From positions 1 to 41,138 of the forward strand of contig JAFMNH010000009.1 in NCBI GenBank assembly GCA_017859335.1: a DNA stretch of 41,138 nucleotides. Reading direction: 5' to 3'. The DNA comes from Rhodothermales bacterium. GTDB lineage: Bacteria; Bacteroidota; Rhodothermia; Rhodothermales; UBA10348. Within the stretch, counting starts at the first letter, position 1. Every line of letters begins with the position of its first letter. Below are positions 6,379 to 11,904 of this stretch, piece after piece. The notes below the pieces were generated by a model, which was not told the DNA's origin, searched no databases, and worked only from the letters and a program-made list of their open reading frames with translations. A program made the translations under genes and the position numbers.

Positions 6379-7380
6379 TCATTCCAGCAGAAAATTGCAT
6401 CCTCGCAATTCCGCCTCGGCCATGCGTCCAAGCACCCTGAATCCGCCATTTTCCGAAACCGCTCGGTCCTGCGTGAGCACCGCACTGACCGTATGCACAT
6501 TGGCAAGGTCCATGAATGCAAGAATCCCTTCTTGGCCCTCATCGCATAGACGCGTGGGATCTGTAGGGTCCACCACGTAATGCCTCATCCACGGGGGCGT
6601 CCTGTAAATGGTATCGGCGTCCGTGTAGCACTGGGATAGTAATTCGCACATGCCGTACTCGGATACAACGCGCTTGCGAGGTACTCCGAAACCCGAGGAC
6701 AACCTATGATGCAGGGCCTCTCGTGAGATTTCTCGCCGGTGCGTTTTCATGCCCCCCGTTTCAATGACGACACTGCCCGTCGGAAGCATCCAATCACGGA
6801 CATCTAGCAGGTCCAGGAGGCCAAAAGCCGCACCGAAGAGCACCACAGGACCCGATGCATCGCTCCTCGTTATTGCATCAAGGCATGACGTGTCTTCCAA
6901 GAAGAGCTGCGAACCGGATGCACCTCGCTTCTCTATCAGGATGGACACCATGGCCACCAGCGAACTTTCCTGCGCATAAGCCGGCAGATGACCCAAAATG
7001 GTTACATCGCCGGGTTGCCAATCAAACCGTTGAGCAATGGCCCGGTCAAAGCCAGCCAATACGCTGCGCTCATACAGACGTGAGTCGGCTATGTAATGAC
7101 GGCTTCGCTGTTGGCTGCCCGTACCCGAACTGACAAAGACGCGCTCCGCTCGATCTGCCGGAAAACTCGTAACCGTCGCCAACTTGAAGGCTTCTACCGG
7201 CAGGAAACGGTATCTCTCGAAACGGCCATAAACCGGACAGTGGGTGCGCTGATAGGCCTCCACACGGTCGGCGACCTCTGAAAACGAGACATCGCCAGCA
7301 TCCACCGACCCGATGAGATCCCACACGAGATCCTCAATCGGCAAGGCAGTATCTGCGTTGTTACTTACCTCAATAGTCAT
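6379..7380 (-). CDS. LuxE-like acyl-protein synthetase family protein
   Basis: This 333-residue protein resembles the LuxE/acyl-protein synthetase family (adenylating enzymes related to PaaK that activate a carboxyl group with ATP). Matching segments are the nucleotide-binding loop VFVSSGTGSQQRSRHY (81-96), a central IETGGMKTHRREISRE (206-221) and SEYGMCELLSQCY (240-252), all of which correspond to LuxE blocks. I chose the ATG at 7380, which overlaps the M14 peptidase stop by 11 bases (ATG...TGA), so translation is probably coupled; an upstream ATG at 7470 would read through the peptidase gene. No luxC (reductase), luxD or luciferase gene is near, so this is not a bioluminescence operon. The true acyl substrate and acceptor are unknown. 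The downstream neighbour, purM, is separated by 318 bases. Confidence 0.82.
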   Translation of the reverse strand: MTIEVSNNADTALPIEDLVWDLIGSVDAGDVSFSEVADRVEAYQRTHCPVYGRFERYRFLPVEAFKLATVTSFPADRAERVFVSSGTGSQQRSRHYIADSRLYERSVLAGFDRAIAQRFDWQPGDVTILGHLPAYAQESSLVAMVSILIEKRGASGSQLFLEDTSCLDAITRSDASGPVVLFGAAFGLLDLLDVRDWMLPTGSVVIETGGMKTHRREISREALHHRLSSGFGVPRKRVVSEYGMCELLSQCYTDADTIYRTPPWMRHYVVDPTDPTRLCDEGQEGILAFMDLANVHTVSAVLTQDRAVSENGGFRVLGRMAEAELRGCNFLLE

Positions 7381-9046
7381 TATCAGGAGCAGGCTTCTCA
7401 GGAATGGGTACAGGCTGCTGAGGCAAGCGGTGGATGGGGTATTCACCTCCGGTAACCATCCAGTCCTCAAGTAGGGCCCAGTTCACCAAGCCGTCATCCG
7501 AACGGGGTTCCAGCAAATAAAAAATCAACCGGGCCTTGTTGTTTCGGGTCGGTACGAGGAGACTGCCCTCTGCGGGGACCACTTCGCGTTGGACCCATTC
7601 CCCCCATACTGTGCGTTCCTGGACACCCTGAAAAGCCCGCTCAGCTGTGGATGTTGAGTCGACTCGAAAGGTCTCGACAAGCTGCGAGACACCGGGTCCC
7701 ATTCGGGAGAACCTGATTCCGTGGCGCTGCAGCAGGTCAGACACCGTCTCCGACGCCTCTGGAGCTATGACATAAGCGAATGGAATCGTGGAAGACTCCA
7801 CGGTTTGAAAAGCCCCATACTCTGGCATGTACTGAATATGGGTAGAATCGGTGCGGGCGAAATACATGGCACCACTGTAGGGATTCCGACGCTCCTCCAC
7901 CGCACCCATGAGAATGGGCGACGCATCGGCATTTCGCTTGGGCTCAAAGCGAAGACCCTGCTCGAGTCCCGCCATGCTCCGACCCTCGGCTTGGCTGATG
8001 ATGGACCGGATGGCCTCACCATTTTGAACGGCATAGTCCACGATGGATTCGACGAAATACAGGCTGGACAGAATCCGCTGCTCGAACGAGGCATACGCGT
8101 AGGCTTCACTCAGAATAGCCACACGATTTCTCAGGCCGACATAGTTGTTGTTGAAACGAGGGCGATGGTCGAAGGTGTACCACCCGGGCTCTCCCCGACG
8201 GAAAGGAAGGTTTCCGTACCAGTAGGCATCCCAGCCGGAACGTTCGCGAAAGGTCGAGCGGACTGCAGGAAGCATCTCCTTGCGCAACAAAGAGTCGATT
8301 GCAGTGTCCGTGTTCGGATTCAGCGGTGACGAATAGGTCAAATGGTACCCATGACGCGTCCCGTTCGTTGTATGCAGATCGACGACCACATGGGGATCGT
8401 ATGCATTCATGAGCGCGAGAAGCGACTGCGCCTCAGGGCTCCTCGCTTTCATGTGGTCCCGATTCAGGTCAAGACCTTGGGCATTGGGGCGCTGTCCCAT
8501 GCCTCCATATGGCCCATTCTGCCGAGGTCGATTGTACAGGTTCACGCGCTCGTTTCCGTCCGCATTATAGAGGGGCGCTAACAGGAGCACGACGGAATCA
8601 GCCCATGCTGCATGATTGCCTGATGCCAGGGACCGGATGAGCATCAACAGGGCCTCTTTGCCGCTTACTTCGCCTGCGTGGATATTTGCCTGAACGAAGA
8701 GGCGTAGCTTGTTTGTCCTCAGAACGCTCTCCGCCGATGCGTCCGCGACATCTCCGAAGACAACCAGCGGGAGACGACGCCCTTCGACCGAGTAGCCGAA
8801 GTGTGTGACGTGGAGACTCGGATGTTGGGCAGCCGCCACGTCGATGAAGGCCATCACCTCGTCGTATCGGGTAGTCTCATCGAACGAAGTGCGTTCGGCA
8901 CCCGTTAGCAGAAACGACAGGTCCGGGGTTTGTGCCCAGACCCGGCTTGCGAACACGATGCAGAGAAACATCGTCATCAAGCTGATGACCCGAGCGGTCG
9001 AAGCGAGCACGGGGCGTGGTCCCATCGGTAGGTGAGGATACTGCAA
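7370..9046 (-). CDS. Secreted M14-family zinc carboxypeptidase
   Basis: This is a 558-residue exported metallocarboxypeptidase. An N-terminal signal peptide (hydrophobic core about 18-35, cleavage likely after RVWA-QT) precedes the M14 fold. Zinc ligands are visible as His123 and Glu126 in NIHAGEVSGKE and His225 in VVDLHTTNG. A substrate-binding arginine sits in GLDLNRDHMK (Arg196), and the general base is probably Glu314 in AILSEAYAY. The C-terminal 200 residues (about 350-558) form an additional domain without a recognised motif. The architecture is like the M14 peptidases common in Bacteroidota that act on peptides or peptidoglycan-like substrates outside the cytoplasm; the specific substrate cannot be read. 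A second in-frame ATG at 9025 would still leave a usable signal peptide. The gene overlaps the LuxE-like gene downstream by 11 bases. Confidence 0.92.
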   Translation of the reverse strand: MQYPHLPMGPRPVLASTARVISLMTMFLCIVFASRVWAQTPDLSFLLTGAERTSFDETTRYDEVMAFIDVAAAQHPSLHVTHFGYSVEGRRLPLVVFGDVADASAESVLRTNKLRLFVQANIHAGEVSGKEALLMLIRSLASGNHAAWADSVVLLLAPLYNADGNERVNLYNRPRQNGPYGGMGQRPNAQGLDLNRDHMKARSPEAQSLLALMNAYDPHVVVDLHTTNGTRHGYHLTYSSPLNPNTDTAIDSLLRKEMLPAVRSTFRERSGWDAYWYGNLPFRRGEPGWYTFDHRPRFNNNYVGLRNRVAILSEAYAYASFEQRILSSLYFVESIVDYAVQNGEAIRSIISQAEGRSMAGLEQGLRFEPKRNADASPILMGAVEERRNPYSGAMYFARTDSTHIQYMPEYGAFQTVESSTIPFAYVIAPEASETVSDLLQRHGIRFSRMGPGVSQLVETFRVDSTSTAERAFQGVQERTVWGEWVQREVVPAEGSLLVPTRNNKARLIFYLLEPRSDDGLVNWALLEDWMVTGGEYPIHRLPQQPVPIPEKPAPDNDY

Positions 9047-9276: not shown

Positions 9277-9301
9277 GACGGTGTGTAACGCGACGGTGTG
9301 T
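9277..9301. repeat. Pair of 10-bp direct repeats before the YjbQ-like gene
   Basis: GACGGTGTGT occurs at 9277-9286 and again at 9292-9301, a 15-base period, 33 to 58 bases before the start codon at 9335. The second copy also pairs with CACAC at 9306-9310. The position, just upstream of the gene or in its leader, suggests a regulatory site or a leader structure; no function is known. Confidence 0.4.
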
Positions 9302-9334: not shown

Positions 9335-10402
9335 ATGGCAACACAACCTACTGACATCCGCCTTACGCTGAAGCCAGAGTCCAGGCTCGAGCTGATTGAC
9401 GTATCTGAGCGAGTAGAAGCCGAGAGCGGTGATTTCTTCGACGTGTACCGCAAAAGCGCGTATGCCTCGCACCACACGACGGCTGGTTTCTTTGAGCAAA
9501 GTTTCGCCCGGCGCCTGAAGCACGACCCTGAAGCACTCGAAAAGTACGTAGGCTCGTTCAAGAAGCTCTTTCCGCCGAACGCAGACTATCGACATGATCA
9601 GATGGAGTTGCGCGACGAACTGAGCGATGCCCAAAAACTGGTAGAGCCAAGAAATGCCGACTCCCACCTGACCTACATCGGTGCTGGCCTGGAAAACTGT
9701 GTCACCTATCTGAATGAACGGCGGGCGCCAGTTTTTTTCATCGATCTGGACGGTACGAACGGCGACACGCGTCGCACCCGCAAGACAACTGTTGTGGGAT
9801 TCAACAGTGAGACCGTCGTTCAGGAGCAGGTGCTGCGCATTCCAATGGGCTCCCACCCTATCGGGTCGGTAAACCTGTGGGACCCCAAGGTAGGCGTGCT
9901 ACAGCAAATCGAAGAGCACATTGCAACGCTTGGGATCGAGAAGGGCCGCGTCAGTTTATCGTTATCCCCGGACGAGAAGAACACAGGGCTGACGGTCAAT
10001 GAGTACGAAACGCTTCTCATGCGCCACGATCTACCCGATGTACTCAAGAACCCCCTGCGTTTTATGGCCATGCGCGGCGTGAATATGCTGCGCGACCCCG
10101 GTGCCATCAAGGAAAAGGCCAAGGATTATATGAAGTACGACCTGGTTCACGTGGTCAATGAGTTCATTGAAGCCACGGGCCTGAGCGATACGAAGGTGGA
10201 ACGCATCATCGACAAGTTCTTCCAGGTCCCTGCCAACCGTTTCCTGCGCATGAAACGAAAGGTGGACCTGATTGTCTCTGATGAGGGCACAGGCAACGGC
10301 CGGATCATCAATGGGACCTACCAAAGCCCGATTCTCGTGCAGTGGAATCGCAATCAGGATCGAACACGAACGGTGAACGTGGTTTTCAGCCGTTTCGAAT
10401 AG
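9335..10402 (+). CDS. Uncharacterised protein with YjbQ/UPF0047-like N-terminal domain
   Basis: I do not recognise the full protein (355 residues). The N-terminal 155 residues resemble the YjbQ/UPF0047 family: SHHTTAGFFEQSF (45-57) matches the family HTT block, YRHDQMELRDE (85-95) lies where YjbQ has its Y-x-H segment, NADSHLTYIGAG (107-118) matches the NAHAHL block and FFIDLDGTNGD (134-144) matches the FVDFDGPR block. Normal YjbQ proteins stop at about 140 residues. Here about 200 more follow, with helices near 185-300 and the basic segment RFLRMKRKVDL (302-312), and no motif I know. The start MATQPTDIRL was chosen because upstream in-frame sequence is low in coding character. No signal peptide or membrane segment is visible, so it is probably cytoplasmic. 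The gene is alone on the plus strand, with a repeat-bearing upstream region. YjbQ proteins have been linked to a weak thiamine-phosphate synthase activity; I do not infer that here. Confidence 0.68.
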   Translation: MATQPTDIRLTLKPESRLELIDVSERVEAESGDFFDVYRKSAYASHHTTAGFFEQSFARRLKHDPEALEKYVGSFKKLFPPNADYRHDQMELRDELSDAQKLVEPRNADSHLTYIGAGLENCVTYLNERRAPVFFIDLDGTNGDTRRTRKTTVVGFNSETVVQEQVLRIPMGSHPIGSVNLWDPKVGVLQQIEEHIATLGIEKGRVSLSLSPDEKNTGLTVNEYETLLMRHDLPDVLKNPLRFMAMRGVNMLRDPGAIKEKAKDYMKYDLVHVVNEFIEATGLSDTKVERIIDKFFQVPANRFLRMKRKVDLIVSDEGTGNGRIINGTYQSPILVQWNRNQDRTRTVNVVFSRFE

Positions 10403-10444: not shown

Positions 10445-11221
10445 TTAGATCAAGGAGTGGGACTGTACACCATCGACGGTAATACAGGCACCTGAAACCC
10501 ATGATGCACGTGGCGAGGACAAGAAGGTTACGACATCAGCCACCTCCTCAGCCGAACCGAAACGGCCCAGAGGAATGTTGTCCGCGATGAATTGCTTCAT
10601 TCCCTCGGGATCTTCTTTGCATCGCCGATCCCACGATCCGCCTTCAAAGCGGATGGACCCTGGAGCTACGGAATTGACGCGAACCCCGTACTTGCCAAGC
10701 TCGATGGCCATGATCTTGGCCGCACTGATGAGGGCTGATTTTGTCGTATTGTAGATGGACAACCCCGCGCCACCAGCTTCACGTCCGAAGATGGATGATA
10801 TGAAGATGATGGAGCCACTTTCCGAATCTTTCAGTGATGGAATGACGGCCCGAGCCGTTCTAAGATGGGACTTGAGGTTCAATTCCAGGATATCCTCCCA
10901 GTCCTGATCGGTAGTTTCCTCGAACTGTCCCCGCCGGTTACCTCCAGCGTTTGCGACGAGGATATCTATGCCTCCGTAAAGGTCTTGCGCCCGGGCAGCC
11001 AACGTCTGCCCCGCATCCGGATGTGTCACATCGAGGGCCAGGCCATGTACATCGGTACCGTACACCTTCAAAGCATCAACTGCCGCATCAAGACTCTCCT
11101 GCCCCCGAGCGCAAACCAACAGGCGGCATCCTTCTTTGGCCAACCCATGAGCTATCGCCAGACCGATCCCCCGACTGGCACCGCTGACGATGGCTACTTT
11201 TCCTTCAATTCCAAGATCCAT
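10445..11221 (-). CDS. Short-chain dehydrogenase/reductase (SDR) family oxidoreductase
   Basis: This is a classical 258-residue SDR. The cofactor loop is SGASRGIG (13-20), with the NAG motif at 91-93 and Asn115 in ELNLKSH. The catalytic Ser142/143 (FISSIFG), Tyr157 and Lys161 (YNTTK) are all present. The C-terminus, VSGACITVDGVQSHSL, is the usual end of FabG-like SDRs. The substrate cannot be told from sequence; 3-oxoacyl-ACP reductase-like or sugar/alcohol dehydrogenase roles are both possible. It converges with the YjbQ-like gene (42 bases between stops) and is divergent from the plus-strand group starting at 11386, separated by 164 bases. Confidence 0.93.
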   Translation of the reverse strand: MDLGIEGKVAIVSGASRGIGLAIAHGLAKEGCRLLVCARGQESLDAAVDALKVYGTDVHGLALDVTHPDAGQTLAARAQDLYGGIDILVANAGGNRRGQFEETTDQDWEDILELNLKSHLRTARAVIPSLKDSESGSIIFISSIFGREAGGAGLSIYNTTKSALISAAKIMAIELGKYGVRVNSVAPGSIRFEGGSWDRRCKEDPEGMKQFIADNIPLGRFGSAEEVADVVTFLSSPRASWVSGACITVDGVQSHSLI

Positions 11222-11385
11222 GGTGCTAAAACAACGTGTTGGTAATTGGCGCTTAAGTTACGGGCGCATGATAGCGATCTTTCGACGAGGGAATGCGTAC
11301 CTCGACAGGAATTGACAGGAACTCCGAGAGGACGCTGTCACGCGAAGAACCCTACCCGTTCGGTATCAGCATAGATCGTAACCCC

Positions 11386-11904
11386 ATGACCACACTGGAA
11401 GCCTTCAATGATCTACCGGATTCCACGGATTGCTGGCTGTACGCAGCAAGCCGGGAGTTGAATGAGGCAGAGATCTCGTTTCTGAATAGTCTGTTCACGG
11501 CTTTCGAAAAGGACTGGTCTACGCATGGAAGATCCGTCAGCGGCGCATTTGCCGTTGCCGGAAACAGGATAGTGATTGTCGCCGCCCATGTCGAAGCAGG
11601 CGATATCAGCGGGTGCGGCATCGACAAGTCACTTCATTTCTTGCAGGAGGCGGCTGCTTCCCGCGGATTCGAGTGGTCCTCCGCCCTGAACATCGTCCAC
11701 GAAGACTCCGACGGTGCCCTCCAGGTGGTTTCCAGAGGGGACTTCAAGAAAATGGCGAAGGAAGGGGTTGTAACACCGAGTACGCGCGTCGTCGACCTGT
11801 CCATCCGCTCCCTGGGTGAACTCCGCAATCCCGGCCTGCTGAGGCGGGCTTCCGATTCATGGCACGTCAGTCTTTTACCTGATCCGTTGCTACCGGTCTC
11901 TTAA
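11386..11904 (+). CDS. Conserved hypothetical protein of a Bacteroidota family
   Basis: This 172-residue protein matches a small conserved family common in Bacteroidota. Family-like stretches are CWLYAASRELNEAEISFL (18-35), a central W-x3-G segment DWSTHGRSVSGAFAVAG and GCGIDKSLHFLQEAA. Members often carry the label 'ABC transporter ATPase' in databases, but no Walker A, signature or Walker B motif is present, so that label is not supported. No signal peptide or membrane helix is visible. I chose the start MTTLEAFNDL; an ATG at 11293 would add 31 residues unlike the family. The potassium-channel gene follows after 20 bases on the same strand, so the two are probably co-transcribed. The function is unknown. 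Confidence 0.75.
   Translation: MTTLEAFNDLPDSTDCWLYAASRELNEAEISFLNSLFTAFEKDWSTHGRSVSGAFAVAGNRIVIVAAHVEAGDISGCGIDKSLHFLQEAAASRGFEWSSALNIVHEDSDGALQVVSRGDFKKMAKEGVVTPSTRVVDLSIRSLGELRNPGLLRRASDSWHVSLLPDPLLPVS

Follow-up and report, generated by a model that had tools for sequence, protein, structure and literature searches.

Here, we identify a 355-residue protein of a Rhodothermales bacterium as a tandem YjbQ protein, in which structure prediction assigns to the second half a diverged second copy of the YjbQ domain. The residues that are invariant in single-domain YjbQ proteins are divided between the two domains, and the gene faces, tail to tail, a gene for a short-chain dehydrogenase/reductase (SDR). 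We suggest that the two domains contribute to one composite active site and that the protein acts in the same pathway as the SDR, a reading to which we assign a probability of roughly 0.55. The broader proposal, that fusion of two YjbQ domains gave rise to a multi-phylum family with divided catalytic residues, a composite site and a dedicated SDR in a two-gene module, is more tentative. All coordinates refer to the window, i.e., the whole stretch of 41,138 nucleotides that was analyzed.

9277–9301, forward strand: two 10-bp direct copies of GACGGTGTGT, 15 bp apart, upstream of the tandem gene; probably chance
9335–10402, forward strand: tandem-YjbQ gene, a 355-aa ORF with a conserved ATG and relatives in 92 of the 114 order genomes
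9350–9802, forward strand: YjbQ domain 1, residues 6–156 (Pfam UPF0047 at its cut-off, hhalign, strand and helix order in the AF2 model)
9473–9487, forward strand: HTTAG motif, residues 47–51, with the first YjbQ His (H47, T48, T49 and G51 in 70/70 sequences)
9587–9598, forward strand: YxHD motif, residues 85–88, with the second YjbQ His (Y85 and H87 in 70/70)
9653–9670, forward strand: NADSHL motif, residues 107–112, with the third YjbQ His (N107, D109, H111 and L112 in 70/70)
9743–9754, forward strand: DLDG motif, residues 137–140, matching the YjbQ E.DG strand (D/E137, L138-D139-G140 in 70/70)
9809–10396, forward strand: predicted YjbQ domain 2, residues 159–354, diverged (PDB matches of the C-terminal half predicted alone; collinear hhalign alignment)
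9989–10003, forward strand: LTVNE motif, residues 219–223 (T220, N222 and E223 in 70/70); the YjbQ His corresponds to E214 (66/70)
10007–10243, forward strand: predicted helical segment inserted in domain 2, residues 225–303 (AF2 secondary structure, low pLDDT)
10319–10330, forward strand: YQSP motif, residues 329–332, matching YjbQ WQG (Y329 in 69/70; Q330 and P332 in 70/70)
10445–11221, reverse strand: SDR gene, 258 aa, convergent with the tandem gene (Pfam adh_short_C2, E 8e-55)

The ATG at 9335 is common to most relatives, and the frame stays open upstream to 9032; the gene called at 9335–10402 in the preliminary description is thus a real ORF of 355 aa whose start codon is kept in relatives. 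The two-domain length is near-constant across these relatives, instead of the ~140 aa of single-domain UPF0047/YjbQ proteins. A phmmer search of PDB sequences with the full protein and a search of PLSDB plasmids gave no match. In the libraries searched, the family is uncharacterized, as had been proposed, and the papers there that name UPF0047 or YjbQ do not describe the tandem in their titles or abstracts.

Several observations support the assignment of the first half to YjbQ. PF01894 (UPF0047) matches residues 45–123 with a score of 27 bits (cut-off 27; E 5.5e-6), and its gathering cut-off is reached by this half only; membership is borderline because a six-frame family search of the bacterium's own genome gives no match at E≤0.001. 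The YjbQ equivalog model TIGR00149 scores 23.4 bits, far below its cut-off of 67.75. In a comparison of hhalign profiles built from 70 tandem proteins and 43 single-domain YjbQ proteins, residues 1–156 match YjbQ over the whole domain (E 2e-9, probability 96%). A shallower comparison of 28 tandem and 21 YjbQ sequences had been tried first, and the first half is clear only with the deeper profiles. The preliminary description had taken this half as YjbQ-like and had proposed profile searches to check it; the UPF0047 match, the hhalign alignment and the presence of the HHTT, NADSHL and DLDG motifs bear it out.

For the second half, the evidence comes mainly from structure prediction. Predicted alone from 70 sequences, this half gave a model with a mean pLDDT of 69, in which the core blocks mostly reach 83–95 and the helical segment falls below 50. 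YjbQ structures account for all 17 PDB matches of this model with E<1e-3 (E from 4e-7 to 3e-4, probability 1.00). The best is chain C of 1vph (E 4e-7, TM 0.68 by target length), and the next match, with E 0.05, is unrelated. The same 17 YjbQ chains are all the matches with E<1e-3 of the full-length AF2 model, in which strands and helices follow in the same order in both halves. By sequence, this half resembles YjbQ weakly (hhalign E 0.0011, probability 20%), but the alignment is collinear, pairing GLTVNE with SLTLNE and GTYQSPILVQW with GTWQGIYLCE of YjbQ; the two halves have no direct sequence similarity to each other (hhalign E 0.26). The YjbQ fold is thus found by profile in the first half and by modelling in the second half alone and in the full-length protein. 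Because the second half alone significantly matches only YjbQ structures, we conclude from the models that it is a diverged second YjbQ domain and that the protein is a tandem YjbQ.

Compared to UPF0047/YjbQ proteins (PF01894, TIGR00149; 1vph, 2p6h, 1vmj, 1vmf, 1xbf and 2cu5), the tandem shares the fold in both halves, the HTTA, YxH, N..SH and DG..R motifs in the first half and the TxNE and (W/Y)Q motifs in the second, but has two domains per chain, between which the residues are partitioned, and a helical segment in domain 2. This segment of ~80 residues lies between the NE motif and the last three strands of domain 2 and is largely helical in the model, although poorly predicted. A shortened tandem relative of 320 aa (locus L176, 173–1135, forward strand) is missing most of it and keeps VNEYE and YQSP. 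This relative sits on a long branch, and the SDR orthologue of its genome (G428) is ~68 kb away on the same contig.

The division of the signature residues emerged from a comparison of 70 diverse tandem sequences with 43 single-domain YjbQ proteins, taken from order genomes and from other phyla, using the YjbQ numbering of L141. The residues invariant in the 43 YjbQ proteins include the three His, E50, D59, G106, W108, Q109, E115 and R122, and in the tandem they are not found together in either domain. H41, H76 and H84 of YjbQ correspond to H47, H87 and H111 in domain 1, which also has R147 in all 70 sequences and an acidic residue at position 137; the WQ and NE pairs are lost from this domain. 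By contrast, E50, D59, G106 and Q109 correspond to E223, D232, G327 and Q330 in domain 2, each invariant in the 70 sequences, as are N222 and R345. Domain 2 is missing all three His and has Glu in place of the first in 66/70, Tyr in place of Trp in 69/70 and Gln in place of the strand Glu in 69/70, while the Arg is kept in each half. Domain 1 has an acidic residue at position 54 throughout (Glu in 45 and Asp in 25 sequences), which may replace the lost YjbQ Glu; therefore, the partition may be incomplete.

YjbQ is a homotrimer with active sites between subunits. We suggest that the tandem chain arose by fusion of two subunits that were once alike, and that residues that single-domain YjbQ may draw from two neighboring subunits would now come from two unlike halves. 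The simplest reading of the residue split would then be that each chain has a single composite active site rather than two. A metal ion or a phosphate group is probably bound by the three His, and the substrate would be a small metabolite of the pathway in which the SDR oxidoreductase works. The preliminary description had raised the possibility of a new activity; because the signature residues are partitioned between the halves, a changed activity is possible.

A scan with one genome per species found 242 tandem loci. By record title, and with many metagenome bins among them, the best 80 of the 242 comprise Rhodothermales or Bacteroidetes records, Acidobacteriota, KSB1, Calditrichota, Gemmatimonadota and Methylomirabilota; contrary to what had been thought possible, the family is thus not confined to one clade. 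In the order, nearly all of the relatives are full length. Of 394 sampled genomes of the phylum, 40 have a match, of which 39 lie inside the order; the remaining one (G236; 24% identity, E 1.8e-4) is doubtful, spans the domain border and is likely due to chance. In the tree, some Acidobacteriota records are mixed among Rhodothermales ones, so that transfer of the gene between phyla is possible. In a Methylomirabilota record (L133), the frame stops after 153 aa though the match runs on, and this copy looks frameshifted. Single-domain YjbQ is widespread (10 of 14 control genomes); the six-frame family search at E≤0.001 found none in the bacterium's own genome. Mutual exclusion of the two forms was considered and rejected, because 21 of the 26 tandem genomes of a wider set also have a single-domain YjbQ, which the tandem therefore does not simply replace.

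The SDR gene is a conserved neighbor of the tandem gene. Among 114 genomes of the order, 88 have both genes, four only the tandem, four only the SDR and 18 neither; in two of the tandem-only genomes (G356 and G463) the tandem lies ~80–100 bases from a contig end, and the copy in a third (G430), at base 12, is partial. These counts are raw and not corrected for kinship, and Fisher's p of 1e-13 for the co-occurrence ignores relatedness and should not be taken for a true probability. The two genes are tail to tail within 300 bp, with a median gap of 28 bp, in 65 of the 88 genomes holding both. In the 394 phylum genomes, an SDR orthologue (E<1e-70) occurs in 38, all in the same order and in the same families as the tandem. 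Outside the order, the SDR adjoins the tandem in records whose titles name KSB1 (L100), Gemmatimonadetes (L119 and L131) and Acidobacteria (L126 and L134) and is nearby in KSB1 L097 and Calditrichaeota L120; no SDR lies beside the tandem in many of the Acidobacteria genomes that carry it, and several tandem genomes lack a close orthologue of the SDR. The product is a classical SDR like the FabG-like short-chain dehydrogenases (adh_short_C2), but falls into an orthologous group of its own (SIFGREAGG, GSIRFPGGSWDRR) and stays below the cut-off of each of the 25 top-scoring NCBIfam models, the best of them being PRK07231.1 (213.2 versus 215 bits).

The preliminary description had called the tandem gene alone. 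It indeed has no codirectional neighbor, but this account misses the conserved SDR gene facing it. The upstream repeats that it mentioned exist but are weak: besides the two probably fortuitous copies of GACGGTGTGT, there are one 10-bp pair with one mismatch and one imperfect (80%) inverted repeat. Between the SDR gene and a K+ channel gene, a 203-aa ORF (11293–11904, forward strand) without a Pfam or NCBIfam match has relatives with 34–68% identity that occupy the corresponding position in many of the order's loci. On the other side, at 6379–7470 and 7370–9046 on the reverse strand, a gene for a LuxE-like acyl-protein synthetase lies beside one for a secreted-looking M14 zinc carboxypeptidase, a pair that is syntenic in the bacterium's own family.

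Different readings of the two-domain chain have to be weighed. The preliminary description saw a YjbQ domain fused to an unknown domain of ~200 residues without known motif. In line with this, residues 157–355 have no significant match in Pfam or NCBIfam, as it had anticipated, and their similarity to YjbQ is weak by sequence; however, the structure prediction that it had also proposed leads to YjbQ structures as the only significant PDB matches of this half alone, and the motifs are collinear, so the architecture that it proposed fails and we regard an unrelated domain as highly improbable. A more serious alternative is that domain 1 works on its own as a YjbQ-type enzyme, with domain 2 as a catalytically dead copy serving assembly, regulation or partner binding. 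Domain 1 retains the three His, the acidic strand, the Arg and the invariant acidic residue 54, and domain 2 has none of the three His and carries the large helical segment, as this alternative would have it. Yet a dead copy would not usually hold residues as constant as the NE pair, D232, Q330 and R345, which do not vary among 70 sequences from different phyla; apart from the Arg, these are the very residues that single-domain YjbQ keeps and domain 1 has lost. We therefore consider a dead second domain unlikely, and a composite site drawing on both domains is the reading we prefer.

As to function, YjbQ has been credited with a single enzymatic activity, a low, secondary thiamin phosphate synthase activity that reportedly emerged from a screen for such side activities (Morett 2008, as cited in PMC4731195), and thiE and/or yjbQ have been used to call this step in genomes (PMC5613172); in E. 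coli, overexpression of yjbQ relieves a pdxB block, with its function given as unknown (PMC7954711). From the first two reports, one could argue that the tandem is a thiamin phosphate synthase replacing ThiE. However, its own genome has a ThiE above cut-off and no ThiC match (and so may have to obtain the thiamin pyrimidine from outside), one family with the tandem (f7) has neither ThiC nor ThiE among the matches listed, another (f10) has both and no tandem, and WQ is lost from domain 1. Replacement of ThiE was therefore rejected on co-occurrence and appears very unlikely. Because the tandem does not track thiamin synthesis genes in the order, we favor a small-molecule enzyme working with the SDR. 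The conserved tail-to-tail arrangement could also be merely inherited gene order with no functional link: the whole neighborhood is syntenic in the bacterium's own family (M14 peptidase, SDR, 203-aa ORF and K+ channel), and convergent genes are not co-transcribed. This explanation is tenable, if doubtful, given that only the SDR recurs beside the tandem in KSB1, Gemmatimonadetes and Acidobacteria records and that the two genes are jointly present or absent in most genomes of the order, even when not adjacent.

The tandem splits the signature residues of YjbQ over two unlike domains, and each half of the site can thus be altered separately. Its recurrent SDR partner provides a concrete lead to the pathway. 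If the proposed reading is true, solving the module of tandem and SDR would help to tell what YjbQ itself does.
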